A program made the position numbers and the translations under genes. This document shows, piece after piece, positions 2,597 through 38,530 of a stretch of 64,000 bases of DNA. Origin of the DNA: Tremella fuciformis (lineage: Eukaryota; Basidiomycota; Tremellomycetes; Tremellales; Tremellaceae); contig CP136490.1 in the NCBI GenBank assembly GCA_032768795.1, positions 4,092,001 to 4,156,000 on the forward strand. The letters are read 5' to 3'. Under the pieces are notes generated by a model. It saw nothing but the letters and a program-made list of their open reading frames with translations, made no database searches and had not been told where the DNA came from. Position 1 is the stretch's first letter. Each line of letters opens with the position of its first letter.

Positions 2597-2718
2597 TGTT
2601 GAAGGTTAGCCGCCACTGCGGGGTTATAGGAAGTGCCGTAGGACGAAACTACATATAGCCACCACTCATAGAGATAGTACGATGAATTCTCTCTTCCCAG
2701 CTCGTCCGCGATTCAACA
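2597..2718 (+). repeat. Copia 5' LTR
   Basis: 122 bp with TG...CA ends, repeated at 16102-16223. It is short for an LTR. It contains a TATA-like ACATATAGCC near 2650. A possible primer-binding site (TTTGGAATCAGATAT, 2721-2735) follows within a few bases of the LTR end. It begins TGG and loosely resembles the initiator-tRNA type seen in other copia elements; this is a weak inference. Confidence 0.9.
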
Positions 2719-2772
2719 GATTTGGAATCAGATATATCTAAAGAGGCAACTCTGAGCACAACAACCACCATC

Positions 2773-4907: not shown

Positions 4908-5311
4908 TGTCACGTCGGCCACGCCTCCATGATCACCAAAGCACGCCTACGAGCCTCGTTCCAGCCCAGCACGCCTGTCAAACACGTGAGCCTATCGTCG
5001 ATCCTCGAGTAGCCTCGACGACGCTCGAGTAGCCTCGACGACTTTAGAGCTCGAGCCTCGTCGATGGTGTTTCAAGGAGAAAGCCCAAGGCGGTGCAGAG
5101 GAGGGCACGGGTGATATATATACAAGTCCTCACCCGTAGACCGTCCTTAGCACCGTGGTATTGAGTCCCATGGATAGAAAGTAACGGCGCAGCCGTGTTG
5201 TCGACGCACGAGAGGCTGTAGGACACACCTTCTCGTGGAAGACAGAGACAGATCAACAGACAGCACGTGTGAGAGGGCCTATCAGTCGACGACCGGCCTG
5301 GCCCCGTGACA
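4908..5311 (+). repeat. Gypsy 5' LTR
   Basis: 404 bp with TG...CA ends, repeated at 13087-13490. A TATA box (GATATATATAC, 5113-5123) lies about 30 bp before the likely transcript start near 5150. An internal direct repeat CTCGAGTAGCCTCGACGA occurs twice between about 5003 and 5042. Confidence 0.95.
5113..5123 (+). promoter_or_regulatory. TATA box of the gypsy LTR promoter
   Basis: GATATATATAC inside the 5' LTR. The 12-nt sequence that could self-prime reverse transcription begins at 5150, the distance expected for a TATA-directed start. Confidence 0.6.
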
Positions 5312-5325
5312 GTATACCACGGTGC
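5150..5325 (+). promoter_or_regulatory. Probable self-priming signal: complementary 12-mers at 5150-5161 and 5314-5325
   Basis: GCACCGTGGTAT (5150-5161), near the predicted RNA start, is the exact reverse complement of ATACCACGGTGC (5314-5325), which begins two bases after the LTR end. No TGG-starting tRNA-type primer site is present there. Tf1-type chromoviruses prime reverse transcription by folding the 5' end of their own RNA onto such a site. The pairing is read from the sequence; the mechanism is inferred from Tf1. Confidence 0.65.
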
Positions 5326-5349
5326 CACTACCTCTCACACGACTAGTTC

Positions 5350-6492
5350 ATGGCACCATCGACTCGACGAACCACGTCGACAGATCCTGAGCATCAGCAC
5401 ATTGCTCTACCCACAAACCTACGACTACCGGTGGACACTCGACTGAGAGCCGCCGCGACCAACATGGCCCAACCATTGGGTGATCAGCCGTCTGTGCAGC
5501 AGTTGCTCGCGCAAATCGTGCAGCTTCAGGCGGCCCTCGTCGAGCAGCAGGCGCAGCAACGACAGGGCTCGCCAGGCGTTGGGAACCCGTCCGAGCCGAA
5601 GGCGAACCCGCCTGACACGTTTAACGGCAAGGACCCAGCCGCTTTGGAGCGGTTCATCATGCAGTGCGAGACGGTCTTCAAGCTGCAGCCGTCGAAGTTC
5701 TCTGGCGACACGCACAAGGTCATGTATGTGATCTCGTTCCTCAGGGGATTCGTGCTCGACGCGATTCAGCCCTTGGCGACAGGGCGAGACAGCGATTTGA
5801 ACGAGAACGGAGAGCATGTCGAGGCTGGCGACTACCTCGACGAGAAAATTCGGACTTACGCTGGGCTTCGTCGCTACCTGCGCGAGAACTTTGGGGATCC
5901 CGACGCGAAGGGGACTGCTCGACGCAAGTACTTCTCGCTGCGGCAGACGGGATCGGCAGCCGAATACTTCGCCAAGATTCGGGAGTACACGTCAGTCCTC
6001 TCATGGGAGCTCGACGAGCAAGCAACGGCTCGTGCCAAGGAAGGGCTCTCCGACGTGCTTCAGGACGAGGTGGCCAGGCACCCCAAAGAGTTCGAGACCT
6101 TTGCCGAGCTGCAGGCGTTTGTGGTCCGCCTCGACAACAGTCTGCGAGCAAGGGAGGCAGAGAAGAACAAGGCGGAGAACAGGCGAGAGAAGAAGAAGAC
6201 TGTCCTGGGCGGCAACAACGGCGGATCTACAGCGGTTACGTCAGAGGTTGGAGCGGCGGCGACGAACCCCAGACCCTCACCTGGCCCGACAACCTCGTCG
6301 AGTCTCAACTCCGCTGCAGCCCCTCGACGAGTCTACCCTCCTCGCCCTAGGCTCACTCCGGACGAGCACGAGAGGCGAGGCAGCCAGGGCCTTTGCTTCA
6401 AGTGCGGAAACGCTGGGCATCTTGCGCGCGACTGCCCAGGCTCGTTCAACCCCGGCCAACGCGTGAAGCAGGAGCCGCAGGGGGAAGCCTGA
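5350..6492 (+). CDS. Gypsy Gag
   Basis: 380 residues from the ATG at 5350. A retrotransposon gag domain spans residues ~70-260 (PDTFNGKDPAALERFIMQCE, then a LRRYLRENFGDPDAKGTA-type segment). A basic linker follows, then one CCHC knuckle near the C-terminus (CFKCGNAGHLARDC). It forms the virus-like particle and packages the element RNA. The last ~100 bp overlap pol, which lies in the -1 frame, so Gag-Pol probably needs a programmed frameshift. A run of five G (6480-6484) lies just before the Gag stop, but I see no perfect slippery heptamer. Confidence 0.93.
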   Translation: MAPSTRRTTSTDPEHQHIALPTNLRLPVDTRLRAAATNMAQPLGDQPSVQQLLAQIVQLQAALVEQQAQQRQGSPGVGNPSEPKANPPDTFNGKDPAALERFIMQCETVFKLQPSKFSGDTHKVMYVISFLRGFVLDAIQPLATGRDSDLNENGEHVEAGDYLDEKIRTYAGLRRYLRENFGDPDAKGTARRKYFSLRQTGSAAEYFAKIREYTSVLSWELDEQATARAKEGLSDVLQDEVARHPKEFETFAELQAFVVRLDNSLRAREAEKNKAENRREKKKTVLGGNNGGSTAVTSEVGAAATNPRPSPGPTTSSSLNSAAAPRRVYPPRPRLTPDEHERRGSQGLCFKCGNAGHLARDCPGSFNPGQRVKQEPQGEA

Positions 6493-9400
6493 GGGGTCCC
6501 GAGCTACAAGGAGAAACTCGAGACCCCGCTCCATACACACTCTCCGCCCTCACGCCTCCTGAACAACCGACTTCACCTCTCAAATCCTCTAATCCGACGC
6601 CCACTCACCCACCGACGGGGTCCGCTTCCCTCGTCGAGGAAGATCAACATGAAGAAGAAGCAGAGGACCTGGAGTCCGAGAAGGAGTCTGTACAGAGTGC
6701 TAGTGATGCCGAGGAATGCATGAGCGGTGAGGCTTGCAGGCTGGGAAGGCATCAAGCTGTCGTAGCAGGAAAAGTGGACGGGACGGCCGCTTGCATACTG
6801 TTAGATACAGGCGCAGGCGGGACCTTCATTGATCAGGACTACGCCGAAGGCCAGGGCTTGACCCAACAGAAGTTGGAGCGACCCAAGAATGTCCTCCTGT
6901 TCGACGGCGAACCGTCATCCGCGGGCGAAATCACCCACGAAGTGGTGGCCCCGGTGGAGACGCTTGGGGAAACAAGTGAAGAACGGCTAGCGGTTACGCG
7001 GCTCGCAGGTGCAGACGTCGTGCTAGGGTACGACTGGATGCAAGAGAAGAGAGTAGTCATGGACATGGGAGCTATGGAAGTCACCCGTGGAGAAGAAAAG
7101 GTGGCCTCGTCGACGGTCGTCGAGGCTGCTTCAAGTGATCTGGCCATTTTGGCTACCAGAGCAAGAAGAGAGAGAGGAAAACACGCGGGGCAGTCCCGTA
7201 GGAGCTCCCCGAACCATATCCCCTTGCGGATCAATCGGTGGGAGCAGAACAGGCTCGCCGCAGAGCGGCTGCGAGGGACTGTCACCGACGAGCTCGAGGA
7301 AGTGGTGGGGCGTTTGGACGGGCATCTTGGGTTTGACGAGTACACTCTGTCAGAGGAGGAGTCCCAGGCGGTGCGAAGGATCGTTCCGGAGTACTACCAT
7401 GAGTTCCTCGATGTGTTCCACCCTCGTCGACCCGCCGACACGCTGCCGCCGAGTAGAGAATACGACCTGCGGATCAGACTGAAGGAGGGCGCAGAACTAC
7501 GGGTCGCACCGCTTTACCAACTGTCGCCGGATCAAATGAGAGCACTCAGGGAGCTCCTCGCCAAAGAGCAAGCAGCAGGCAAGATCAGGCCATCGAACGC
7601 GGCGTATGGGTCGCCGAGCTTTTTCGTCCCTAAGAAGGTTGCCGGCGAATGGCGAATGGTGGTCGATTACCGGAAGCTCAACGAGGCAACAGTGTCGGAC
7701 GCGTACCCCTTGCCGTTGATTTCCCAAGTCACGGGTGATCTGGCGGAGTCAGAGTGGTACACCAAGTTCGACCTACCGGGAGCCTACCAGCTTCTTCGCA
7801 TGGCGCCAGGACACGAAGCCTATACCGCCTTTAGGACGCCTTTGGGGATGTTCGAGTCCCTGGTAGTGCGAGATGGCTTGAAGAACGCGCCAGCAGTCTT
7901 CCAGCACTTCCTCAACGAGGTGCTCAGAGAGTTCGTTGGGCGGGGAGTGGTGATCTACATCGACGACATTTTGGTCCACGCCAAGAGCCTCGACGAGCTT
8001 CGTTCCCTCACAAAGGCGGTACTCGAGGCGTTGCGGAAGGCGGGACTGTATGTGAAAGCGTCGAAATCCGAGTTCGAGAAGAGGAAGGTCGACTTTCTGG
8101 GCTTTGTCATCTCCCGAGAAGGCGTGGAAGCGAATCCGGAGTACGTGAAAGGCGTCGTCGACTTCCCAGCACCAAGCAACCTCCTCGAAGTACGCCGGTT
8201 CTTGGGTCTGGCAAACTATTACCGCCGCTTCGTACCCAACTTTGCCAAGGTAGCGCTCCCCCTAGTGTTGCTGACAAAGAAGGGAGTCCCGTTTGGTTGG
8301 GGAGACGCGCAGGCAAGAGCCTTCGAAGAGATCAAGAGGCGAATGAGCGAGCCCCCTGTATTAGCCCATTTCGACCCTGCATTCGAGACCATCGTGCAGA
8401 CCGACGCTTCGCTCTACGGGTGGGGATTTGTGATATCACAGATTAACCCCTCGACGAGCCTCGAGCACCCGGTGGCCATAGAGTCTGGGTCGTTTTCGGG
8501 GGCAGAGTTGAACTGGACGACTACAGAGAAGGAGTTCCTGGCGATAGTGATGGCGTTCAAGCGGAAGCGACATCTCCTTCTGCAAGTAAGCTGCACGGTC
8601 CTCACGGATCACCACAACCTCAGCTATTGGATGGAGCCGAGGAAACTGAGTGGGCGGGTTGCGCGATGGGTCGACGCCCTGGCAGGATTCTCCTTCCGAA
8701 TCGTGTATCGTCCCGGGCTCAAAGCGGCTTACCCAGACGCTCTGTCGAGGAGGCCCGACTACAAGCCTGATGGATTGGACCTGGAGGAGCAACGAGTGCA
8801 GGCCTTACCTGGGTTTGACCAAGAAAGCAAGGTCGAGACGTCGTTGGGGTACATGCTTCGGGCACTGATCGAGGAGCCTCGACGAGGCTCGTCGAGTCCA
8901 GATCCAGAGGCAAGAGAGGATCCGCAGACGGGTACTCGGAGCACCTGGGAGGAGGATGAGGAGTTCGAGCACGCTGGAGAAGAGTTGGAGAGGATCAAGA
9001 AGGAGGAGAACGGAGTGGTGATTGATGCGGCGGGATTCCCCAAGCTGTTTGGGTTGGTTCAAAGGATGGGCCTCGACGAGCCCACACGAGCCAAGGTAGA
9101 GCCTGGCGGGGCCCTGCGACTCAATGGGCGGCTATACCTCACTGGCAAGGGCGATGGGCGGCTCCGAGCCATAAGGGATCGACATGAGGGGATCCTAGCG
9201 GGACATCCGGGAATCACCAAGATGTTGGAGTTGCTCAGGAGGGACGTCTGTTGGCTGGGGCTGCGGCGCGATGTTGAGGCCTACGTACAGGGTTGTGCCA
9301 TCTGCCAGAGGACAAAGACAAGCAGGCAGCGCCCTCATGGTCTCCTCCAGAGTCTCGAAGTCCCGGAAGGCCCGTGGCAAGCAATTTCCATGGACTTCAT

Positions 9401-10460
9401 CGAGGAGCTCCCCGGCAGCCAGGGCTTCAACTCCATCCTCGTCGTGGTAGACCGCCTGACGAAGTGGGCTATCTTCGTGCCGACAACGACTCGCCTCACA
9501 ACGGCGGGACTCGTCGACCTCATCATCGACAATGTCGTGGCGCAGCATGGGTTGCCAAGATCCATCGTATCTGATCGAGGGAGCAAGTTTACTAGTCGAC
9601 TATGGGGAGCACTGTGTGGGGCCCTGGGGATCAAGATCAGCCTGTCGACAGCCTTCCATCCCCAAACCGACGGGCAGACGGAGCGAGTCAATCAGGTCCT
9701 CGAGCAGTACCTACGGGTATTCTGCGATCACAGACAAGACAATTGGTCGAGTCTGCTGCAGAGAGCAGCCTTCGCCTATAACAATACCCAGCACTCGGCG
9801 ATCAAGATGAGCCCGTTCGAGGCGAACTTTGGGTACTCGCCGCGATGGACTGATGACTTGAGAGAGAGCGCCGAGCGAGCGGAGATACCGTCGGTCAAGG
9901 AAAAGCTTGGGTCCCTCGACGAGGTGCACCGATCTTGCCAACAAGCCATACAGCAAGCCAATGAGCGGTACGCCAAGTATTACGATGCAAAGAGAAGGGA
10001 TGCGCCAGTGTTGAAGGTGGATGATATGGTCATGCTGTCGATGGAGAACATCAAGACTCGTCGACCCTCGAAGAAGCTCGACATCAAATGGGGGGGACCA
10101 TACAAAATCCTCGCTAAGACGGGTCCATCAACGTACAAGCTGGAGCTGCCGGCGACGATGAGGGTGAGCCCGGTCTTCAACGTCCTCCGTCTTAAGCCAT
10201 ACCACCCGCCGAGGATCCCTGGACAGACCTACGACCCTCCGCCACCAGTGGAGGTCGACGACGAGGGCCCTAGCTATGAGGTGAAGAACGTCGTCGACTC
10301 GAGGAAAAGGGGCAGAAAGGTGGAGTACCTCGTCGAGTGGGTGGGGTACGAAGGAACAGATGAGGAGACGACCTGGGAACCAGTGGAGAACATTACTGGT
10401 GCTCTCGAAAGCGTCGAGAGCTTCCACAAAAGGAACCCAGGGAAACCAAGAGGAATATAA
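6393..10460 (+). CDS. Gypsy Pol (protease-RT-RNase H-integrase-chromodomain)
   Basis: Open frame of about 1,355 codons in the -1 frame relative to gag. The coordinate is the start of the overlapping open region; no ATG start is implied. Order: aspartic protease LLDTGAGGTF (~6810); reverse transcriptase with WRMVVDYRKLNE and the catalytic YIDD at ~7955-7966; RNase H (IVQTDASLYGWGF); the integrase HHCC zinc motif (~9180-9310); the integrase core (SMDFIEELPG, SDRGSKFTS, TDGQTERVNQ); and a C-terminal chromodomain (~10275-10440, YLVEWVGYEGTDEETTWEP). The chromodomain places it among chromoviruses, whose integrases can target marked chromatin. No internal stop was found. Confidence 0.95.
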   Translation: MLQVRKRWASCARLPRLVQPRPTREAGAAGGSLRGPELQGETRDPAPYTLSALTPPEQPTSPLKSSNPTPTHPPTGSASLVEEDQHEEEAEDLESEKESVQSASDAEECMSGEACRLGRHQAVVAGKVDGTAACILLDTGAGGTFIDQDYAEGQGLTQQKLERPKNVLLFDGEPSSAGEITHEVVAPVETLGETSEERLAVTRLAGADVVLGYDWMQEKRVVMDMGAMEVTRGEEKVASSTVVEAASSDLAILATRARRERGKHAGQSRRSSPNHIPLRINRWEQNRLAAERLRGTVTDELEEVVGRLDGHLGFDEYTLSEEESQAVRRIVPEYYHEFLDVFHPRRPADTLPPSREYDLRIRLKEGAELRVAPLYQLSPDQMRALRELLAKEQAAGKIRPSNAAYGSPSFFVPKKVAGEWRMVVDYRKLNEATVSDAYPLPLISQVTGDLAESEWYTKFDLPGAYQLLRMAPGHEAYTAFRTPLGMFESLVVRDGLKNAPAVFQHFLNEVLREFVGRGVVIYIDDILVHAKSLDELRSLTKAVLEALRKAGLYVKASKSEFEKRKVDFLGFVISREGVEANPEYVKGVVDFPAPSNLLEVRRFLGLANYYRRFVPNFAKVALPLVLLTKKGVPFGWGDAQARAFEEIKRRMSEPPVLAHFDPAFETIVQTDASLYGWGFVISQINPSTSLEHPVAIESGSFSGAELNWTTTEKEFLAIVMAFKRKRHLLLQVSCTVLTDHHNLSYWMEPRKLSGRVARWVDALAGFSFRIVYRPGLKAAYPDALSRRPDYKPDGLDLEEQRVQALPGFDQESKVETSLGYMLRALIEEPRRGSSSPDPEAREDPQTGTRSTWEEDEEFEHAGEELERIKKEENGVVIDAAGFPKLFGLVQRMGLDEPTRAKVEPGGALRLNGRLYLTGKGDGRLRAIRDRHEGILAGHPGITKMLELLRRDVCWLGLRRDVEAYVQGCAICQRTKTSRQRPHGLLQSLEVPEGPWQAISMDFIEELPGSQGFNSILVVVDRLTKWAIFVPTTTRLTTAGLVDLIIDNVVAQHGLPRSIVSDRGSKFTSRLWGALCGALGIKISLSTAFHPQTDGQTERVNQVLEQYLRVFCDHRQDNWSSLLQRAAFAYNNTQHSAIKMSPFEANFGYSPRWTDDLRESAERAEIPSVKEKLGSLDEVHRSCQQAIQQANERYAKYYDAKRRDAPVLKVDDMVMLSMENIKTRRPSKKLDIKWGGPYKILAKTGPSTYKLELPATMRVSPVFNVLRLKPYHPPRIPGQTYDPPPPVEVDDEGPSYEVKNVVDSRKRGRKVEYLVEWVGYEGTDEETTWEPVENITGALESVESFHKRNPGKPRGI

Positions 10461-10600
10461 CGCATGGACTACTGGCGGTGACGATGATCTGGATCGAGAT
10501 TCGTCACCCAAGCTGAGTCCTATCCCTGCATCCCCTGTACAACATGAACAACACGGCATATGAACATGAGCTAAGAAAGAACTATGTACACTATCTACAT

Positions 10601-12401
10601 TCACGACCCCGAACCACTCGCCTCCGCCACGTCGTCGAACATGGGCCCGACCATCGCCCTAAGGTCCAGCCCCAGGAGCCTCGCGTGCCGCCTCGCCTCC
10701 TCGACGTGGTACGCCCTGTCCGCCGGGATGGACTGGGCCAGCGTGACATGGTGCTGAAGGACACCGATGTCGAGCCTCGTCGAGGGAGTCCACGACAAGG
10801 GAGCTGGCGCGGATGGGCGGGCAGGAGTCGACACCGGAGGCGGCGTCGGAGGCGGCACGGGAGCCGGCACGGGTTGACGAACCGACCGGCGAAGTCGGTC
10901 GGTGAAGGCGGCCGGGCCGACAACAGGCGTGGGGGCGGGAGTCGGCGAAGGCGGGTCGACATCCGCGAAGCTCACAGCCCGGCGAGCTCTGGGTGTCGAG
11001 GACGAGCTGGCGGGTCGTCGAGGAGTCGGGCTGGAGTTGAACGAGCAACCTGAGGCTGTGCCACAGGTGTAGCACTTCAACTTCGGCCCGCCTCCATCTA
11101 GGACCCTACACGGCAAGTTGTCCGAACGACACCGCTGGCATCGCTGGCGGCCGTTGAGCGTGCGGAGAGGTCGCCCTTTTGCCTGAGCCTGCAAGATCAG
11201 CGTGAGAGGCTGGAGAGTAGAAGACAACAACGCACCAGGGCCCATGGGAGGGTCCTATTCGATCCCCGGCCGAACGTCGGGTAGAATGGCCCTGGGAATG
11301 AGCGGGGACCTCAACAGATGGCGGACGTACCGAAAAAGGCGCGGTCCAGCGCATTCCTACACCGGACTCGAGGGCCAGCCTCGAGTCGCCTCGACGACGC
11401 CTCGCTTCCCTCCCCATCGGATCCTCCACTGCCCGCTTCGGATTCCCCAACGGATCCTTCGCTGCCCGCTTCGGATCCGTCTCCCGTCGAGATGCTGCCC
11501 TCCACGACGTCTTCTCCTACACCTGCGTTGTCCACGGCGGCCGGGAGAGCATCGGCTACCTCAGACACCCCAAGATACCGGGTTGAGGCTGAACGCAGGC
11601 GAGAGGAGTACATGCCGCCAACAGGCGACACGCGACGACGCTTTGGGGTTGGGGAGAGGGGAGGCGGTATCGTTGGCAGGGGAGTGTTGCCTGGGGAACC
11701 GGGCGACTCGACTCGACGCCGGCGGCGTGGGTTGATTGGCGGAGTCGGAGAGCGGGATGGCGGAGGCATAGAAGGCGGGGGAAGGAGAAGGATAGGCGAG
11801 CCGAGGGGGACGAGGGGATAGGGCGGTATGATGGGGGATCCGGTCCCACCACCAATGTAGGGGCGAAGAGGCCGAGGCGAGGCCGGCTCGAACGGCAAGG
11901 AGTGGGCTTCTCGATAGCGACTCTCGCCAGCGAAAGCCGCGTCGGAAGCCTGGGAAGACGGGGGCGAGGCGTCTGAGTAGCCGCTGGACGTAGAGGAGGT
12001 AGCACAGCTACTCTCCCTAGCGGCTCTGACGGTCCCCTGGTGCCGACGGATCTCGGCGTGTATGTCTGCTAGAGAGCGCAGAATCGCTGTACGCCCTGGG
12101 CATCAATACAAGCAGTAGGGTGACTCAACAATCACTCACCGCTTGGCGCAGCACTGGCAGCATCCGACCAGTCGAGCTCATCGACGAGCTCGTCGATCTC
12201 CTCGACCGGTGTGGGCTCCGGAGTTCGAGGACGGACCGCCCATCGAGGGAACAGTCGAGGAGGGGGAGCGTCGACAGCCGACTCGGGGGAGGATGGCGGC
12301 GTCGTGGGGCTGGGGGAAGGGGTTTTGGTCATCGTGACCAGGCGTAGAGGTCGTCCTCGGAGGACGATTTTGAGGGAGGGATCGGTGGCGTTGGAGAACA
12401 T
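10601..12401 (-). CDS. Antisense spliced gene inside the chromovirus; Zn-cluster-like protein
   Basis: Four exons opposite to pol: 12401-12140, 12095-11331, 11291-11236, 11188-10601, with introns of 44, 39 and 47 bp using GTGAGT, GTACGT and GTGCGT donors. They join in phase to 556 residues. The N-terminal ~350 residues are Ser/Pro-rich with basic and acidic patches and look disordered. Exon 4 opens with a six-cysteine cluster (CQRCRSDNLPC, then CYTC and C, spacing C-x2-C-x6-C-x11-C-x2-C-x5-C). That is close to a Zn(II)2Cys6 pattern, but the middle loop is long. The last ~50 residues look helical. Its 3' end faces the pol 3' end 140 bp away. Function is unknown; it could be a captured host gene or an element-encoded regulator. 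Confidence 0.7.
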
Positions 12402-13072
12402 ATGATGCGTTGGAGTGGAGAGTTTGGAATGGACGGGACGAGTAGCCTCGTCGAGAGGGGGTTTATACCTTTTGGAGGGGACATGGCGGGGACGAGGGAC
12501 GAGAGGGCACTTGACGACGAGAGCAGGCAACACGACTTTTCACGACAGTTTGGCGACTTGTTGCCTAGCAACGAGCAACATGATCGACAGAAGGGCGTAG
12601 CGCGGAGCGGCAATCACCGGTTATCTCGCGGCGACTGCCGCATTGGGCAATCTGACCCCGGCCTCGTGGCCGAGGTCGACTCGAGGTCGACTTACATACG
12701 CGCAAATTCCAGCATGAGACGCCTATAGCTCAGCAACGGGCGGGCTATCCAGCACAGGGATCACCCTCGACACCACGCGCGTCGGGACACATGCGGGCTG
12801 CACACTACCTGTGCCCGTTAGTCACTCCACGACGGCAACACAGCCTACGCCCCGACTAGCGCCTAGAAAGATAGCACCAGCTGCGCGAGACCTCGAGCGA
12901 CCAAGAAGGACGGACCGTCGACGAGACCAGGCCCTGCTTACACACCCACAGACCCTCGGGATCAGCCCTGCGAGGAATGACCAAAAGACACGGCTTAGCG
13001 CGAGGCGGGAGCAAAGGCTCAGGCCATACAAGCTGCCCCGCCTCGCCCGCCATCTCGCAGGAGCTCGATTTC
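12402..13072. other. Non-coding 3' part of the gypsy element; promoter of the antisense gene
   Basis: About 670 bp between the antisense gene start and the polypurine tract. It presumably holds the antisense promoter and the 3' untranslated region of the element RNA. I see no convincing ORF or repeat. Confidence 0.5.
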
Positions 13073-13086
13073 AGAGGGGGGCAGAG
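13073..13086 (+). promoter_or_regulatory. Gypsy polypurine tract
   Basis: AGAGGGGGGCAGAG directly before the 3' LTR. This is the expected primer for plus-strand DNA synthesis. Confidence 0.75.
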
Positions 13087-13490
13087 TGTCACGTCGGCCA
13101 CGCCTCCATGATCACCAAAGCACGCCTACGAGCCTCGTTCCAGCCCAGCACGCCTGTCAAACACGTGAGCCTATCGTCGATCCTCGAGTAGCCTCGACGA
13201 CGCTCGAGTAGCCTCGACGACTTTAGAGCTCGAGCCTCGTCGATGGTGTTTCAAGGAGAAAGCCCAAGGCGGTGCAGAGGAGGGCACGGGTGATATATAT
13301 ACAAGTCCTCACCCGTAGACCGTCCTTAGCACCGTGGTATTGAGTCCCATGGATAGAAAGTAACGGCGCAGCCGTGTTGTCGACGCACGAGAGGCTGTAG
13401 GACACACCTTCTCGTGGAAGACAGAGACAGATCAACAGACAGCACGTGTGAGAGGGCCTATCAGTCGACGACCGGCCTGGCCCCGTGACA
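13087..13490 (+). repeat. Gypsy 3' LTR
   Basis: Second 404-bp LTR. Comparison by eye with 4908-5311 finds no difference. Followed by the target duplication ACAAG (13491-13495). Confidence 0.95.
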
Positions 13491-13495
13491 ACAAG

Positions 13496-15665
13496 AGTAG
13501 GCTCGGATGGGAAGACGCCCTGGGAAGTGCTGTGGAAGCGCAAACCAAGCATGGAGGATGTACATCCTTTTGGGTGCGAGGCATGGGTAAGGATCCCAGA
13601 GCCCAACAGAGAGAAAGGGGATATGACACAGGCAAGAGCGGAGAAGGGACGACTGGTGGGATTGCCAGCGGGAACAAGTGGATGGGCAATATGGCTCCCA
13701 CTCACGCAAAAGGTGATCTTCAGCCGGGACGTCACTTTCAGGACAACAGGTCAAGCCGATGTCAACCCACCTGCAAGAGAAGAGGTAACCGAGCAAGTCG
13801 AGCAAGTGCCGGTACCGATAGAATCTTTGGACGATCAGCCAAGCTCAGGGGAGCAAGTCATAGAGGAGGTGGAAGAGAGGGCAGAGCCCGAGGCGGTAGC
13901 AGAGGAAGGGGGAGCCGAGCCAGGAGAAGCTCAGGCAGACCAACCTGCACCAGTACCTGCGGAGCCAGTACCATTCCAACCTCGACGCAGTGAAAGAGTC
14001 CGGGCGCCACGAGTAATGATTGCCGATGGCGAGGTCAACATTGCAAGCAATGACGAAATATTTGGCTGGATGCTGTCAGCAATGGCAGCATTGGATGACG
14101 ACCCAAAGACGTATGAGCAGGCCATGGCGTCACCCCTCAAGAAACAATGGGAAGAGGCAGTGAACGCTGAGCTGCGCGTGATTGAGAAAGCTGGGACATG
14201 GGAAGAAGCGGTGTTGCCCGAGGGCAGAAGGATAGTAGGGTGCAAGTGGGTATTCAAGACGAAGCGAGATCAGGACGGAGCGATCATCAAGCACAAGGCT
14301 CGGATTGTTGCCAAAGGATACTCGCAGGTTCCCGGACAAGACTTCGAGGAGACCTACTCACCGGTTGCACGCCTCACATCACTTCGAATATTCTTCACCA
14401 TTGTGGCAACAGATGGCCTAGCAACAGGTCAGGTCGATGTCATTTCAGCATTTCTCAATGGAGAACTCACGATACCAATCTACATGGAGATACCCCTTGG
14501 CTATCAAGCGACCAACCGAAAGGCAAACTGCGTGAAACTGCTCAAGGCCCTTTACGGATTGAAGCAAGCAGGTCGAACCTGGTGGGAGGCTTTGGATAAG
14601 CAACTGGCAAAGCTCGGGTTCGAGCGGTGTGCACAGGACTGGGGAGTGTACGTGAGAAAAGGAAGCAAGACGGCGTACCTGGTGGTGTACGTGGACGACA
14701 TGCTGGTAGCAGCAAAGGACAAGGCGACGGTTGATGAGATCAAGAGGGAATTAGCAAGGCGATGGGAGATGACCGATGCTGGGGAGGTGACGTTCATGCT
14801 CGGACTGAAGGTCAGCCGAGACACGGAGGAGCGCACCATCCACCTCAGTCAAACGGCTTACATCGACACCATCCTTGACCGATTCAATATGACAACCGCC
14901 AAGCCTGCCACTACCCCATGGGTAGCGGGTGTCCACCTCCAACCAGACGGAGAGCCGTGTCACGAGGGCGTGGCAAGATACCAGCAGCTTGTTGGGAGCT
15001 TGATGTGGGCAGCAATGGCGACGCGACCGGACATAACCTTCACGGTCAGCGCACTGGCAAGACATTGCTCAGCTCCAACACAAGAGCACTGGGAGATGGG
15101 GAAAAGGGCGTTGAAGTACTTGAAGGGTACACGCACCTTAGGACTGAAGCTTGGCGGCAAAAGGAGAACACCCGTGCTGGAAGCATGGAGCGATGCCGAC
15201 CATGCTGGGGACTTGTCCGACAGAAAGTCAACGAGTGGCTTTATTGTCAAGTTCCGAGGATCTACTGTCAGCTGGGCGACACAGAAGCAGAAGAGTCGAG
15301 CGTTATCAACAGCCGAAGCCGAGTATTACGCCCTCACGGAGACCTGGAAGGACGTGGAATGGGTAAAGAAGGCGTTGATGGAATACGGAGTGGAGAGCAC
15401 GGAAAGGGTAATGATATGGTGCGACAACCAGTCGGCCATAGCCCTGGTAGAGAATCCGGCTCACCATCGTTCAACCAAGCACATCGACATATACTGGCAT
15501 CAGATCCGAGACGTCAAGAAGAGCGGCAGATATGATCTGGAATACGTCAGAACAGACGATCAACTGGCCGACATCTTCACAAAGGGTTTGGCGGGACCGG
15601 CGCATCAGCGACACCGAGAGGGGCTGGGAGTAGTGGAGGCGGAGCAAGAGAGGACTCACGCATAA
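13496..15665 (+). CDS. Copia gag-pol polyprotein, 3' half (integrase end, RT, RNase H)
   Basis: Continuation of the frame broken at 4907: the reading phase resumes correctly after the second copy of the ACAAG duplication. It encodes the integrase C-terminal part (VHPFGCEAWVRIPE), an acidic linker, the RVT_2-type reverse transcriptase (WVFKTKRDQDG, ARIVAKGYSQ, catalytic YVDD at ~14689-14700) and RNase H with the SDADHAGD, STAEAEYYAL and WCDNQSAI segments. It stops with TAA at 15663-15665. It lacks its own start here and cannot be expressed as part of the polyprotein. Confidence 0.93.
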
Positions 15666-16228: not shown

Positions 16229-16526
16229 CGGGAAATCCCGTTTTACGTAAGTTTCGGTCAAGGTTGATCCGAAAAGTCCAGCAAGCGTTGAGAGGGCAAC
16301 GACGCGACGAAGGGCAAGATCTACGCAGCGGGCGACAATCAAGGCCAGGCAGGCGATCAGAAACACTACACAGGCCACGACAGGACTCAGAGGGCGATAC
16401 GTGAAGTGAATCGGAACAAGAGCTCAGGGGGATTCAGCGGGCAACAGGCAGGACTAGCAGGGGCAGCGTTGAACAGGTGACAACTAGGGCGGAGCAGAAG
16501 ACGAGCAGGACTGAGCAGCGCGCACG
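16229..16526. promoter_or_regulatory. Right half of the divergent promoter, upstream of the GCP4 gene
   Basis: 298 bp between the right target duplication and the ATG at 16527. It was joined to 2385-2591 before the copia insertion. No clear motif seen. Confidence 0.45.
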
Positions 16527-19305
16527 ATGCTCGCCGAGATTCTGCTGGTTCTCTCAGGGCATTCATCGTCATTCTTCGTCCCCACGACCTCGCAAAATGG
16601 GTCCTCCACTCTCACCGTCTCACCGAGGCTCTCCGAGTTCCTGCACCCCGGGGAGGTCGCTTCTCTCAATGACCTTGGACTCGTGGCGCATCAGTACCGA
16701 AAGATACGAGACTGGGCAACTTCGACGCAGCAAAGGGGCAGGGAGGCTGTACTGGCGTCGTCTTTGACGGTCAAAGGCAAAGCTCGAGCTGAGGAACCTT
16801 CGGACGATGCGCCGGACCAATACTTGTCTACCCTGGCCAGCGGGGTCCTTGACGTCCTCCAAGCGTACGAGATGTTGATCGTCGAGCTTGAGGCGAAGAT
16901 TCTGCAGCTCGATCCCGCCATCGTGCAGGACGCGGACGGTTATGTCCCGCTCACTACCTTGACGGCCGCATTGTCCCCTTGGCGAGCACCGCTTGCCAGC
17001 TTGGTCGCGCTGGTTGATCGCCTCGCTTCACCACCGGCCGGTACTCCTCGATGTACGCCACGAGCATTGATACAGCTGGTCGAAGTGAATACACATACCG
17101 GCAACCCGCACCTCGCTCAGATCTACGCCACATTGCTAGCTGGTCTGCGGCACCTCTTCCTGACGCATCTGGTCACTTTCTTGTTGTTCGGGATCGCTCC
17201 GACGTCCTCCTCGCCGACATTGCCTGCGATAGCTTTAGACATAGGATCAGACCCGCTTTCGCCGAAACATCGCCAATACCGGCTGAACGATGGTCTGCTC
17301 CCTGCTGCGGTCTCCGCGAGGACTCGAGAGAGCATATTGTATGTTGGCAGAGTAGCAGCGACTCTACAGCGGGAAACTCGGCGTCTTCCGCAAACTACAG
17401 TCAGCGAGCTCAGAGAGGCAATCATGAGTTCACAGGACCTGCAAGAAGGAGGCGACCTCGATTTAGCTATCGACCGCGCACGAAAAGAGGTGGGCGAATG
17501 GCTCTGGAGGCACGTCTTGACGGGACCTCATGTTGCCAACGCCCTCGAGTCGTTGTGAGTCGGTTTGTGAGATCCTTGGAAGAGAGCTCATCCGCAGTGG
17601 AGAATACTTACTAACCCGAGATGGCGAGTTCTCGACCAATTTGATCCGTGAAGTCTCTCGTCTACGACTACAAAAGCTCATCACCTCAAACCCTCATTCT
17701 TCGTCCTCGGTGATTCGCGAGCAAGACCTGTCGCTAGCCATCCTGCGCGCTGCGACAGGCACAAGTGCCGAGAATGATAGACAGCTGGAGAAGCTGCGGT
17801 TCCGCTTGCCGCGCGGACCATTAAGACCGATCATGCCAGCTCTTACAGCATCGACTCGAGGGACGCCCCGACTTGGGACGGACGATAACCAGTATACCAG
17901 CGGGCAGGCAGTTCGAGACCTATTCTCGTCGTTCCTCCTTGGCGCTCCGCTCGAGCTAGAAACGATCGTCGCATGGCCGCTTGACTTGTTCATGACGCCA
18001 GCATCGGTCTCCGCCTATGGCGACATCAACGCCTACTTGCTAGCGCTGAGAGAGACCCACCTACAAGTTCTGGACTGCTGGACCTCCCTCTCGGCTGCGC
18101 AGCGCCAGAGGCGAAAATGGACTGGCGCCAACGAAGGTGGCACTGCCGAAGAGATAGGCGCTAGGCAAAGTCTAGCTCGAACAGCTTGGGGAGCTGTAAG
18201 GGCCATGCTGTTCTTCCTTGATCAGCTCCAGAGTCATTTCATGGTCGATATCATCGCGGTGCAGCACAAACGTCTGTTGGCCGAGCTGGATGGTGTCAAT
18301 GTCCGACAGAGCGAGTCCGAGGCAGGGTCGCTGAGAGGGTCGACCGCAACCAGGCCTCAATCGCCATCAGGAACCAATCGTCCCACTCCTACGCTGTACG
18401 CATCGAGCGTTGTGGGCGGTCGACCGGCCTCTCCAGTTTCGACACACGGCTGGGACACCCAGACTGCAAGGTCGAGAGCGCCTCCCACGCCCGGCCGTCC
18501 TCAGGCTAGCTACTTAGACTTTTTGACCCTCAGGCCAGTCTGCTTCCTCTGCTCACCGAATTCCAGCTAAATGAGCAGGCAGATGCATACGCGCCACCTG
18601 GCCTTCCTGAAAGAAGGCCTGCTCATCAGCGATCGGACTTCGGCTGCACTTGTGCGCGATATCCTTTTGACTTGCAAGCGGTTCACGGGTCTCGTCGAGC
18701 GATGGGGCGGAGATGTCTTGCCCGAACTCCTCTTCGACACATCTGTTCCGAGCGGCAAGGGAGATCTAGTGCAGGAACGGGCTGCAGCAGTGGACGAAGT
18801 GGTCGAGGTGAGAATGAAAATGCGCGACTCAATGGCACCGCTGACCCGCAGACCTTGCGCGAGCACATGGTGGACTTCTTTCGCTTGCTTGTCGAGTCGC
18901 AGAATCCCTCTTTGGCAGGAGGTACCTCGTCAAACGGGACCGCAACGCGTACGGCTAGTCGAGCGGCGTTGTTGCAGGCGTCACGTGTGTTCGCGCGTCA
19001 GACAAGCTTTATTGGTGTGTCTAAGGGGAAGATCGCGCCTGGCGGGGCAGGTGTTGTGGGTAGCAAAGATAAAGCCAAGGCGGCGAAAGAAGAGAGGGAC
19101 CTGGAGGCAGAGGCGCTTATGGGGAGACACATTGAGCAACGTCAGTATTTTGTCCGTTTCACATCATCCGGTCTGACGCGCAGTACTGCTGCGGCTCGAC
19201 TTTAACGGCGTCTTGACGGGCTGGTTGGCGAAAGAAGACGAAGGCGGCCAAACACAGCATCTTCTCGCAGAGGGAGGCCTGTCCCCGCTACCTCAGCCCG
19301 TATGA
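16527..19305 (+). CDS. Gamma-tubulin complex component 4 (Spc97/Spc98 family)
   Basis: Five exons: 16527-17554, 17598-18537, 18583-18807, 18852-19140, 19184-19305, giving 867 residues. The N-terminus MLAEILLVLSGHSS is the GRIP1 start typical of GCP4. Conserved GRIP segments include FLHPGEVASLNDLG, the GEYLLTRDGEF segment after intron 1, and the helical YLDFLTLR...HTRHLAFLKEGLL near the end. The final exon gives LLLRLDFNGVLTGW. GCP4-type proteins cap or complete the gamma-tubulin ring that nucleates microtubules. Intron 2 has a weak donor (GTCTGC) but keeps phase. The gene converges on VPS33 with 31 bp between the stops. Confidence 0.88.
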
Positions 19306-32154: not shown

Positions 32155-33475
32155 TTACAACTTTGGTGCACCGTCGTCGCCCAGCCGGCCTTCCCCGACT
32201 ACCTTGCCCTCAAGCTCGACCACCACCTCCTGACCCAACTCCTTCACCCTCTCCACATCGTGACCTATCAGGCTGACATGTACCCCGCTGTACAAATATG
32301 GATAACTGCCAATTCGGATCCCCTCTTTCTTCACCCGCGCTTGCAGTTCGGTAAGATAAGGGGCGATGACAGATTCTGGTTTGGAAGTGTAGATCAAATG
32401 GCGGAAGGGCTTCGCGGACGCAGGAGGTAGAGGCAGATATGGCGTTAAACCTAGCAGGAGCTGCTGGAATAGGCTGGGAATGCCTGGGAAGATGCAAAGC
32501 TGCCCGTCGTCAGCTATCCCCTTTCTGGCTGCGGTCCAAGCCGGTTTGATTAGCAGCAGGCATCTGCTCACTTTTCCAGCCAGTCTGACGACTGGCACCC
32601 ACTTCTCAGGCTCGACGAACAACACCTCACTGATTGCACCCCCTTGCCCGTCCCCGAAGTGACCTCCCTTGGCAGTCGGGAACAGTGCCATTCGATCGCG
32701 CGCTTCCACTTGTGCGGGTGTAGCTTTTGAGAGCTGCTCCTTCCGCTCTGGGCTGGCCAAGGCCCACATTCGACGCTTCGTTTCTTCGTGATATTCTAGG
32801 GGCAAGTCGAAAGCTTTGCCGAGGGAAGCGTAGGTGATGTCTGCAGGTCAGACCGACTAGGCAAGGTGGATGATGCTGACCATCATGTGTAGGCCCGATG
32901 CCTCCCGAGGTCACGACAAAGTCATAATTTTCTGTCATCCGTCTTGCAGCCTCAACACTGACGGATGAGCTGCACTCAAGCGCGGAGTGAGCAACCCTCA
33001 CATCTCGTCTTCATCGTCTGCGATCACCTCTATGCGTTTCCTATCTGTCAGCGTTACTCAAGCCCACCAAAAAGACGATGTACAGCTCGATGCCCAAGTC
33101 GAACGCATATTGGGCAAAAAAGTTCGAATTCGTATCTTTGGTCTTGCCATTCAGTACTTCATCCCTGCAACATCAGACACCAGATGATCGAGTGATTACT
33201 GAGACCCACCCGATTATCAGGCATCCAGCCGTTCTGGACGTCAGCAGCAAATCGAAGCATGTATCGGCGGAAGCTGACTTGATGTAATTACCCTCCCCCA
33301 AGGGGTTCTTCACGGACTTAAGATCGGTAACTTCGAGCTTCTCCTGGCCAGCAGGTGCGGACATTGCGAACGATCGGCGAGCAGCGTTATGAGAGACGAC
33401 CAGCAAGCGGTATCTTGACTTGACGATTCGAGCTGTACAAGGCCTTCGCGCCGAGGCCAAGCCGAGTCTATACAT
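32155..33475 (-). CDS. Molybdopterin-binding (MoaB/Mog) domain protein
   Basis: Six exons: 33475-33210, 33164-33084, 33040-33002, 32957-32881, 32840-32572, 32499-32155, giving 358 residues. The MoCF fold is clear: [49 protein letters not shown], and the later [14 protein letters not shown]. Relatives are the N-terminal domain of human FLAD1 and CinA-like proteins. No FAD-synthase domain follows, so a stand-alone nucleotide-hydrolysing or binding role is more likely than molybdenum-cofactor synthesis. Residues 1-40 are basic and Arg/Ser-rich like a mitochondrial presequence. The 72-bp last intron is a multiple of three. Confidence 0.85.
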
Positions 33476-33829: not shown

Positions 33830-36800
33830 ATGGAGGTCCACCCCGAGCCCACTTCCCCACGTCCGACAGATACTGCACCGACTCTCGATACCGTCATCGA
33901 CGATGCCATGGCAGAGCAGGTCCAAGACTTGGTCGCTGAGTTTGGCAATGGTCCAGAAGACGAGCAAGATGCATTGGACAGCATTGTTGATCTCGACTCG
34001 CGCATGTTTGAGGATCTCGCCGCCCTCTCCAATTCGATACAGGCTGAACAATTCGAGCTGTCCGGGGAGAGATCTGCCCAGGGTCAGGACGATAGAGCCA
34101 CACATGTGGTTGAGTCGCAAGCCGAAGAGAGGCAGCCGAGTCCTCATATTGATCCTACACCTGTGGAGAAGGTCGAGCCGGCTCCGGCTGCAGCTCCAGC
34201 ACCCGAGACCCCGACAGAGGCAAATGAGCCCGTCGTCGCTGGTCCGAGCACGAAGCGGTCTCGCGAGAAGACTATTGATGCCTCAGAGGATGCAGAGGAG
34301 GAGGAGGAGGATGGCGATAAGGAAGACATGGACAATGATAGCGAGTTTGGCGATGGTGGAAAGGTCAAGAGAAGACGGAACAGGGCGGCTTTGTCAGTGA
34401 GAAATTCCGCCGGAGTTGCTTTGCTCACGTACAAGAAGCTGCACAGAATGTCATCGTAGGGTAAGTGTCTGGTCGTCAAGTCACACGCTCCTTGCTGATG
34501 ATCAGAAACGTGAGCTGCATATACATCCAAGATCCGTCCCAACTGACGCACCCTTTGATTTTGTTCAACAGAACAAGTCAGCCATTTCCTGCGCCGAGCT
34601 GTCCACAACTGACGACCAGTGCGATCGTAAAGTCCCTTGCAATCGATGGTGGGCTTGAGCCGACAGCTCGACTCGCATACTGACGACCAGTATCAAGCGC
34701 GGATTGGCAAGCATGTGCCGGATGGAGATGCCGGCGGGACCAGTGCGAAAGAAGCGCAAGCAAGTTCACTCACCCCCAACTGCTATGCTCTGCTGACTTT
34801 CAGACGCCCAGTGGATTGGCAGACCACTCTGAACACGGATTTGCAAATTCAGGCACTACAAACGCTCATCTCCTCCGGCTCTAGTCTCGAAGGAGAGGAA
34901 GCCGCCGCTGCTGCGCGTGACACCATTCGGCAAGCGACTAGAGCTATGCAATCGGGATCGAGACAGGCCACAAACGCGCTTGCCAAACTTACGCAGAGCG
35001 CGACAGAAGGACCCGGCATTGACGACATGTCCCAAGATGCTCGAGCGGTTTTGCTAAATGAAGTGTTAAAGCAGGTGAGCGTTTCCTTTATGACCAAAAG
35101 CAGAAGTTGAGAATCAGCTGTCATCGGCGAGCATGACTGCTCGGGCTGGATCGGTGGAGCAGGGTGCCCGGAGTGACGATGGCGCGGAAGAAGCTTGGTC
35201 TGCAGTACCCAAGGCTCCCTCAGACTCGTGAGTCTCTTCGTCTTGTCAGTATAAATTGTCGCTCACGATCAGCGTTGCCCAGATAGCATCTGCTTTTGAG
35301 GAGGACAGCCACCCTGACAAGCTAAACCTTTCCTTATCCGGTCTCAGAGGGGACGACGGACGCCTGTTCATCCCTCCGTCTGTGCAGAGAGTGCGCCAAA
35401 CTGCTTGGGCCGACGGCATGTTTGGCGAAGAGCCTCTGTCGGCTCGCGGCCATACTGCATTCATCGAGAGTGCTCTAGAACTTGCTTTCGGGGCGGAGAG
35501 CAAGGCATTGAAACAAAATAGAGCAAGCCATATCTTGATTTAGGCAGTCCGCGCTGATTGTTAGATCAGTGCCGTCCAAGCGACGTCTATCACTGGAGCG
35601 CTTCGCATCGCTGCCACTTTTCTTTCTCGCTTCCCTGTCGAATCGCCGCAGAAATACGTGTATCGGCCGAACGTGACCAGCCGGGAAGATCTCGCTGTTT
35701 TGCATGAGTGCGGTCTCGAACTACGTACGTATCCTCTGCTGGACAGAAAAACTGGGGAGATCGATTGGGATGGCATAAAGTCGGAGTTGCAGGTATGACG
35801 CTGCTGCTAAGGTGCGAGCCAAAACTGATCAAAGTCTGCAACTCCCCACTCCATTGTGCTACTATCTGCCGGAGGCTTTGAGCCCTCGGGCGCAGATTTG
35901 ATTGATTCTCACTGGCGGACTCTCGTCACCGTTCTGAATGTGAGTGCGTCTCCCCATGTGGAAACCCGATTCCAACGCTCAGAAACGCCAACTTGTACCG
36001 CTGGTTATCATGCCGAGTCAAGGACTTGCAAGCGGGGATCCCGACGAAGACGCGCGACATGTTCGCTACATGGTCGACCAGGGAGTACCATTAGTGCTAC
36101 TGCAAGGGTTTGATGCGGTCAGCTTTTGCGTTCCGCGCGAGGCCAAGACTCATCAACCAGATCCTTGGGCTATACTCCGACTCGCCGGCTGTGGTATCCG
36201 TCCTGACTGACTCCCCGGCGGATCGAAGAAGAGTGGACTCGCAGCTGCAGAGTATCGCACGGACTTTCCACGTCCATGCCTCCCCTTGGGGCGCGCAAGT
36301 CGCCTCGTCTCTGTTATCGGACGGGCGATACGTGTCTGCGTGGTTCGTATAGACCGCAACAGCTGTGCCATCTGCTGATGATCAGGCGAAAAGAGATCAA
36401 GGCCATGTCTGCCCGATTGCAAGGCGCACGCAAGCTGCTTTTTGACACCCTGACGAACAAGCTCAAAACTCCTTCTCCGACGGGGGACTGGTCACCCATT
36501 CAACGTTCAGTTGGTCTCTACAGGTAAACCGCGTTTTAGTCAGCATCCAAGGCTCATCCTTGACAGCATGATCTTCTTGCGTCCGTCCGATTTGGCCTCC
36601 ATATCCGTCAAACGGCACATCTACCTGCTCCCCGACGGCTGTGTCTCTCTCGGCTGCCTGACTGCCAGCAAGGTCGAGGCTTTGGCCAGGAGTATCGATT
36701 ATGTCATCCGGCAAGGTATCCGCGAACGCGAAGAGGCAGCCGCGCAAGAGATGGCTATGCAACTCGCGCTCGATGCGGCGCGCGAGCAGGCTGCACGGGA

Positions 36801-37050
36801 GGAAGCAGAGGCTGCTGCCTTGGCCGAGGCGGCAGCAGAGGAGGCAGCAAGAGAGGAGGACAACTTGCTCATGGCGCGCAGTATCGCCGATGCCATGGAG
36901 GCAGCGAAGAATGTGCAGGAGGATGAACGGAGGAGGATGGAGGAGGAGAAGGCGATGGAGGCGGCGATCCGGAAGGCCGCAGAGAGGGAGGAGATGTTGA
37001 AGCATTCGGAGGCCATCTTGGCGCAGATCCGAAATGCCGAAATGAGGTGA
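33830..37050 (+). CDS. Zn(II)2Cys6 DNA-binding domain fused to a degenerate aspartate-aminotransferase fold
   Basis: Fifteen exons: 33830-34392, 34439-34460, 34506-34509, 34572-34576, 34620-34648, 34691-34759, 34804-35074, 35118-35227, 35273-35522, 35565-35792, 35835-35939, 35983-36117, 36161-36342, 36386-36523, 36567-37050, giving 864 residues. Residues 1-185 are acidic and disordered. A zinc cluster has Cys 189, 192, 199, 205, 208 and 217, then RKKRKR. From ~345 to ~755 it follows class-I aspartate aminotransferase end to end (PDKLNLSLSGLRGDDG, ITGALRIAATFLSRF, GLYSDS). Key residues are lost: the PLP lysine aligns with Ala597, the pyridine Asp with Ile561, Tyr225 with Ser564, Asn194 with Glu533, Arg386 with Cys729. 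A ~110-residue charged helical tail ends it. Two introns are GC-AG. If intron 7 is retained the protein would stop after the DNA-binding part (35110). Confidence 0.75.
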
Positions 37051-37591: not shown

Positions 37592-38530
37592 CTAGAACTT
37601 GATTTGGCCGGTATTGTCGAGCTTCTTGACCTCTTCCATGACCTCCTCCAAGCTGTCCTTCCACTCCTGCATGTCCTCTGCCGAAGGCGCGGCCTTGGCG
37701 GTGGCGCCTGCCGCTGCAGACTTTTTCGCCGGTGTCGAGCTGGCTTTAGCTCCGCTCCGCTCCCCAGAGCCTTGTCGTCCTCACCATATCAAGACACACG
37801 ACGTCGCACGCTTTGTACCGCTCGCTGCGCCGAGTTCCTCCCTATGTCGTCAGCCAAAGCCGAGCACGGCAGTCGTGATAGACCCACTTGCTCAATACCC
37901 AGCAGTACTCGACACCCGCAGCCTCCTCAGCAAGCAGAGGCAGATGGCTAATCACATCAAGCGGGGTGATGTTGCTCGCGAGCACCAGCAAACCCTTCTC
38001 CCCTTTCCGCAAGGCTTTGACGACCTCCTTCACACCCCGGCGCAGTTGGCGTACTTTCGAGGAGCGCTTGACGGTTTTGAACACTTTCTTCGACAGTTTC
38101 TTGCCGGCAAGCGGCGAGGCGATCGGCGAGATGGCGTCTGGCGGGACATAAAACTCGGACTGGGATCAGTTTCTTGATCCATCACTCGACACTTGCACAA
38201 GCATGTCCAGTGCGCTCATGCGCATAGACTCGAATAAGATTAGCTAGCAGGGAGATGGCTCACCTTGACATCCCCCTGCCCGTCCACAACAACTGACTCG
38301 TCTGCTCCAGCAGCAGCAGTCGATTTTCGCTTCTCCTTCTTCTCCTTCTTGGCCTTCTTGGCCGCCTTCTCCCCATCCACCTCCATTACCACCGCCTCGG
38401 CGCTCGCGGTCCCTGCAGGCGGAGGGACAGGTTCGGGTGCGACGACAGAGGCCATAGAGACGTCCCCTGCGGCTGCTTCGGACTTTCTCTTCTTGTCTTT
38501 CTTCTCCTTCTTCGGGGCGGCGTCGGACAT
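37592..38530 (-). CDS. NHP2: Nhp2, H/ACA snoRNP L7Ae-family protein
   Basis: Four exons: 38530-38264, 38159-37888, 37841-37785, 37739-37592, giving 247 residues. A Lys/Glu-rich N-terminal ~90 residues is followed by the L7Ae core: ISPIASPLAGKKLSKKV, VVKALRKGEKGLLVLASN, ITPLDVISHLPLLAEE, and KEELGAASGTKRATSCVLI. It binds H/ACA guide RNAs for pseudouridylation and is part of telomerase RNP in other eukaryotes. The acidic/basic tail ends KKLDNTGQIKF. Intron 1 is 103 bp, the longest in the region. Confidence 0.92.

Follow-up and report, generated by a model that had tools for sequence, protein, structure and literature searches.

In a 64,000-nucleotide (nt) window of the Tremella fuciformis genome (the whole stretch analysed: contig CP136490.1, positions 4,092,001 to 4,156,000) we investigated a gene on the forward strand that joins a fungal Zn(II)2Cys6 zinc cluster to the fold of aspartate aminotransferase (AspAT). 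The gene probably encodes a single regulatory protein of a family from the Tremellomycetes, in which a DNA-binding zinc cluster is combined with an AspAT stripped of its cofactor, pyridoxal 5'-phosphate (PLP), and used as a dimerisation platform. The computed support comprises a probable single spliced message, the fold, conservation, and the disappearance of catalytic residues throughout the relatives that we found; DNA binding, dimerisation, a nuclear location, the absence of PLP binding and regulation by a ligand or a partner are inferred. The gene model, in window coordinates, has these elements:

33830 to 37050, forward strand: whole gene, 15 exons, 865 amino acids, ATG at 33830, stop ending at 37050; the spliced product equals database protein P0001
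34506 to 34509, forward strand: microexon (exon 3) of 4 nt, AAAC, required for the KQQ of P0001
34572 to 34576, forward strand: microexon (exon 4) of 5 nt, AACAA, required for the KQQ of P0001
34760 to 34803, forward strand: intron 6, GC-AG (GCAAGT...TTTCAG), needed for the match to P0001
35075 to 35117, forward strand: intron 7, the in-phase join of the zinc-cluster side to the aminotransferase side; if retained, it leads to a stop at 35108-35110
35523 to 35564, forward strand: intron 9, GC-AG (GCAAGC...TGTTAG); the product agrees with P0001

With a GC-AG intron 6 the spliced product is identical to P0001 over all 865 residues. Our first model had a GT-AG intron 6 (34764-34822) and 860 amino acids; it was dropped after comparison with P0001, from which it differs only in the surroundings of intron 6, and it (or its aminotransferase part) was the query in the homology, Pfam and PDB searches. 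The KQQ of P0001 has a single solution, AAAC plus AACAA, in a scan of 34461-34619 for one or two exons of at most 9 nt bounded by AG/GT or AG/GC. The two microexons, separated by a 62-nt intron within the scanned region, are among the smallest exons known to us; they add up to 9 nt, and only their joint inclusion or joint skipping is neutral to the frame. Our independent rebuild, in which intron 6 needed correction, likewise has 15 exons, as in the first-pass annotation, an earlier reading of this DNA, and confirms the in-phase junction of the two parts that it had described.

The same annotation had pointed out that separate genes would be divided by a stop at 35110 and an ATG at 35133, and both appear when intron 7 is retained. 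On this reading the two halves are neighbouring genes that the model joined in error. However, this explanation is extremely unlikely, as it is contradicted by P0001, one protein with exactly the fused sequence, and by the same zinc cluster-aminotransferase fusion annotated in Kwoniella and Cryptococcus. P0001 was probably read from messenger RNA (mRNA), because a gene finder working without transcripts is unlikely to find such tiny exons, and because a search of the window's genome with the aminotransferase part returned two pieces of the gene's own locus, split by introns, and seven matches at AspAT-like sites elsewhere, and no uninterrupted copy. One fused protein from one spliced message is thus the probable product. 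A pseudogene is disfavoured, since the frame is open across 15 exons and the domain is conserved among relatives.

The aminotransferase part has these features, the three residues being assigned by residue comparison:

35273 to 36663, forward strand: pseudo-AspAT domain, about residues 359-737, exons 9-15
36115 to 36117, forward strand: A598, in the place of the PLP lysine (AspAT Lys258)
36260 to 36262, forward strand: R632, the kept equivalent of AspAT Arg292
36640 to 36642, forward strand: C730, in the place of AspAT Arg386

The Pfam domain Aminotran_1_2 scored 100.3 bits on the 860-residue model against a cut-off of 19.7, and the PDB search returned AspATs that are covered end to end (best match 5ax8, E 6.9e-57). 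The domain is therefore AspAT-like and of fold type I, in agreement with the end-to-end fold proposed earlier. Residue roles and numbers here follow general knowledge of AspAT. The PLP lysine, Asp222, Tyr225 and Asn194 had been called replaced, and they are (A598, I562, S565 and E534); Arg266, which binds the PLP phosphate, has become S606. Both substrate arginines had been called replaced as well, which is true of Arg386, now C730, but not of Arg292.

The gene is no singleton. A search for the same architecture elsewhere, suggested with the first-pass annotation, found at least 43 relatives: two homology searches, each scoring about 7,990 candidates, gave at least 47 different proteins, and we removed P0023, an unrelated zinc-cluster protein, and the lysine-bearing AspATs P0045-P0047, so that the family count is a lower bound. 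An organism name is attached to 32 of the 43, and all named genera belong to the Tremellomycetes (Tremellales, Trichosporonales and Filobasidiales). They are Kwoniella, Cryptococcus (C. neoformans, C. bacillisporus, C. depauperatus, C. wingfieldii, C. floricola and other, unnamed species), Cryptotrichosporon, Cutaneotrichosporon, Vanrija, Saitozyma, Naematelia, Kockovaella, Papiliotrema, Dioszegia and Filobasidium, besides a 'Tremellales sp.'. The whole alignment as query gave three matches, all already among the known members.

The loss of catalytic residues extends over these relatives (counts refer to those of the 43 members that cover a position). None keeps Lys258 (0/43), Asp222 (0/43), Asn194 (0/41), Tyr70 (0/41), Gly108, Trp140, Asn142, His143 or Arg266 (each 0/42), Asn297 (0/41), Phe360 (0/37) or Arg386 (0/35). 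Other AspAT residues are retained almost everywhere, namely Arg292 and Pro195 (both 41/41), Thr109 and Tyr263 (both 41/42), Ser107 (39/42) and Ala224 (39/43), and three positions are mixed: Ser255 (27/43), His189 (17/41) and Tyr225 (13/43). The seven true AspATs used for comparison are themselves uneven at Asn297 (4/7), Gly108 (6/7) and His143 (6/7). An active aminotransferase is contradicted by the residue counts across relatives. The sequence comparison supports a dead enzyme whose catalytic residues are gone, and PLP binding has presumably been lost with them.

A branch with support 100/100 splits 33 well-covered members from the seven true AspATs in the tree, and the relatives form one group. 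The tree does not place the ancestral AspAT, because the branches are long and the true AspATs amount to seven rows, of which this genome supplies four. These four are diverged AspAT-like genes (G000:C7:2152642-2153310, C3:2603530-2604165, C7:2209337-2210002 and C6:105616-106266) that all carry the PLP lysine and form their own group; three more AspAT-like matches, which lie on contig C6 of the same genome near 530 and 597 kb, are not in the tree.

Is the former active site still a site for a ligand? One could assume that the rebuilt cleft now takes up a different metabolite, such as a dicarboxylate held by the retained arginine, and that this alters the binding of DNA. Several cleft positions are indeed fixed to a new residue, as weighted shares over the 33 of 43 members with coverage over 90% show: Asn142 to Glu (0.99), Arg266 to Ser (1.0), Phe360 to Tyr (0.92), Asn297 to His (0.84) and His143 to Asp (0.84). 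The nearly invariant Arg292 and Tyr263 point the same way, and the loop after the lost lysine, with the consensus MMGLYADSPA, is among the best-conserved stretches. However, Asn194, Trp140, Gly108, Asp222 and Ser296 vary, and 24 cleft positions taken together are no better conserved than the domain (mean entropy 1.08 versus 1.16 in the same members; 31% of position sets drawn at random reach so low a value), which agrees with an earlier test of 17 positions (1.13 versus 1.16). The cleft as a whole is without special conservation. With the evidence on the cleft divided, we rank the scaffold reading first and the sensor with a rebuilt cleft second, the latter being possible but rather unlikely.

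In AspAT, Arg292 reaches the site of the neighbouring subunit, and Tyr70 is likewise supplied in trans. The retention of Arg292 could therefore reflect a cytosolic or organellar pseudo-subunit that pairs with a real AspAT in mixed dimers and modulates it; the zinc cluster would then be incidental, and its absence from many database models would fit this explanation. However, Tyr70 is lost in all 41 members that cover it, which disfavours complementation of a real AspAT in mixed dimers, and the clusters that are modelled whole are nearly alike in Kwoniella, Cryptococcus and the window protein. We consider such a pseudo-subunit improbable, and return to the DNA-binding scaffold and to the parts outside the aminotransferase domain:

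33830 to 34392, forward strand: exon 1; the N-terminus that it encodes is acidic and largely disordered, has one short helix (model 57-75) and carries the basic run KVKRRRNR ahead of the cluster (alignment A1 and predicted structure)
34440 to 34718, forward strand: Zn(II)2Cys6 cluster (C190, C193, C200, C206, C209 and C218), spread over exons 2-6, Pfam PF00172
34804 to 35227, forward strand: helical linker, exons 7-8, with model helices 243-256, 262-281, 285-299 and 309-332 at a predicted local distance difference test (pLDDT) of about 50-65
36664 to 37047, forward strand: long charged C-terminal helix (model 738-864), conserved in alignment A1

The zinc-cluster domain that had been proposed is a genuine Pfam match: Zn_clus (PF00172) scored 27.9 bits on the 860-residue model against a cut-off of 21, and the spacing CX2CX6CX5CX2CX8C fits the Zn(II)2Cys6 pattern CX2CX6CX5-12CX2CX6-9C. 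The cysteines had been placed at 189-217; the cluster is there, but the numbering was off by one. Most of the exon 1 part is predicted at low confidence. An N-terminal hydrophobic motif with the consensus DPATLANLAALSRI emerges from alignment A1, and the window protein fits it loosely.

Several observations weigh against a DNA-binding regulator made from one message. Fungal_trans (PF04082), common but not universal in zinc-cluster factors, gave no Pfam match at E values up to 1, and the cluster is predicted at low confidence (pLDDT about 38-56). The mRNA origin of P0001 is read from its content, since its record (three contigs, the longest 3,399 bases) gives the source as 'lgn'. The cluster is also patchy in the database models. 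The intact motif CTECHRRKQ(H/Q)CDR is found in 6 of the 43 (P0001, P0002, P0005, P0031, P0032 and P0034). In nine, the second cysteine is separated from the third by three residues rather than six: seven of them read CTECHRR-CDR, the front of P0008 is misjoined, and P0015 (Vanrija) reads CHKH-CDR. One half of the cluster is all that four models show (the second half in two, the first in two), and 24 have neither half. Real degeneration, loss or skipping of the cluster in some species, as far as the protein models alone go, may lie behind this pattern.

Mis-modelled small exons and truncated models are, however, the likely cause of the missing parts, because the gap in CTECHRR-CDR sits exactly at the two microexons of the window gene. 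Six of the 24 clusterless models (P0012, P0013, P0014, P0019, P0020 and P0025) keep the basic run ahead of the cluster, and the rest are fragmentary or have a later start, such as P0027 of C. neoformans and P0038 of Filobasidium. P0027 begins MEHPVLP, compared with MCRMEHPVLP in Kwoniella, at a methionine just past the end of the cluster of its relatives. Two further Kwoniella models, P0010 and P0011, read CHRRKRT at the microexon site, as would be expected if those genes also had an AAAC|GT donor. Zn_clus was found at E values up to 0.01 in 10 of the 22 members of alignment A1. Among the displayed, shortened names, 16 of 43 are of the aminotransferase or PLP type and seven mention Zn(2)-C6, so some databases already record the cluster.

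An alternative explanation for the gap is a regulated switch. Joint skipping of the microexons would drop KQQ and reduce the spacing from six residues to three, and the resulting isoform should not bind DNA while keeping the pseudo-enzyme and its helix. The joint frame neutrality and the seven CTECHRR-CDR models, which read as skipping would have them, are in line with this. There is also a precedent in the accessible part of PMC11121469, where the zinc cluster of Xlr2 from Trichoderma holds a 20-nt microexon that is included without glucose and not expressed with glucose. That microexon, like ours, lies inside the cluster and was missed by the annotated gene model, but it is one exon of 20 nt rather than two of 4 and 5 nt, and the accessible text does not mention an aminotransferase domain. 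Gene finders that miss tiny exons are the simpler account of the seven models, and we regard a switch as unlikely.

If the protein is a dimeric regulator, then its history and action are most likely as follows. An AspAT would have been duplicated, fused and stripped of PLP and catalytic residues. The zinc cluster and the flanking basic residues would contact DNA, whereas the pseudo-AspAT, the linker and the long C-terminal helix would hold two subunits together, so that the dimer would meet DNA with a pair of zinc clusters, an arrangement shared by many factors of this class. The acidic N-terminus would be offered to the transcription machinery. The former active-site cleft, no longer a PLP site, could receive another small carboxylate-type ligand or serve as a surface for a partner.

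The protein resembles Gal4-type Zn(II)2Cys6 factors (PF00172) in its six-cysteine spacing, basic flanks and Pfam score above cut-off, but its effector part is an AspAT fold instead of the usual Fungal_trans domain. It shares with the eukaryotic AspATs (GOT1, GOT2, yeast AAT) the whole fold at about 30% identity; unlike them it has Lys258, Asp222, Asn194, Trp140, Tyr70, Gly108, Arg266 and Arg386 replaced and is joined to a zinc cluster and a C-terminal helix. SPTLC1, an enzyme subunit without a DNA-binding domain, is another fold-type-I pseudoenzyme without the lysine, and differs from the window protein, which has a zinc cluster. The bacterial MocR regulators (GabR, PdxR), with which the first-pass annotation had compared the gene, also place a DNA-binding domain ahead of an aminotransferase-fold domain. 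The analogy holds for this layout but goes no further: MocR proteins combine a GntR helix-turn-helix with an aminotransferase-like domain, whereas the 860-residue model gave no Pfam match to GntR at E values up to 1, the PLP lysine and other cofactor residues are absent, and among solved structures it is eukaryotic AspATs that match the sequence best. A bolder proposal would make the family an independently evolved eukaryotic counterpart of MocR that senses a metabolite other than PLP in its rebuilt cleft and also switches DNA binding by including or skipping the two microexons together, across the Tremellomycetes including Cryptococcus; we find this combination doubtful.

Upstream, a divergent neighbour (32158-33364, reverse strand) contains pieces of an FAD-synthase-like/molybdopterin-binding protein (FLAD1_M, E 1.4e-8; earlier pieces by eye). 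The probable ATG of this neighbour, at 33364, and the start of the zinc-cluster gene are 466 bp apart, a distance at which the two divergent genes may share a promoter. A convergent gene downstream (about 37595-38530, reverse strand), read from the frames, looks like that of the small nucleolar ribonucleoprotein protein NHP2. Farther away, copia-type gag/integrase (2686-4929) and copia-type reverse transcriptase (13452-15662) enclose a polyprotein of a different kind (RVT_1, integrase, chromodomain; 6351-10457), as if one retrotransposon had inserted into another within 2686-15662 (forward strand). A gamma-tubulin complex component N-terminal domain follows at 16515-17555 (forward strand, E 1.5e-22). 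Scans of the 64-kb window for transfer RNAs (ARAGORN in bacterial mode) and against Rfam gave no matches.

The first-pass annotation knew of no fungal equivalent, and the literature searched agrees: the combination of a zinc cluster and an aminotransferase domain in one fungal protein is undescribed among the best literature matches listed, subscription journals lying outside the search. The string 'aminotran' is absent from the main text, as far as accessible, of a survey of fungal factors (PMC5415576), and in the accessible parts of PMC10470540 and PMC3990503 'microexon' occurs once each, as a read-mapping option. According to the accessible part of PMC4391232, genes for a Cryptococcus deletion library were chosen by predicted DNA-binding domains; a gene whose model lacks the cluster could therefore escape that selection. 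The DNA-binding head is partly or wholly absent from many models, which is likely an annotation gap, and catalogues built from domain prediction could have missed this protein, whose relatives are often named as enzymes. Zinc-cluster regulators would thereby gain an effector domain undescribed in the literature searched. The protein suggests that a eukaryote, like bacteria with their MocR proteins, took an enzyme fold into the service of gene regulation.
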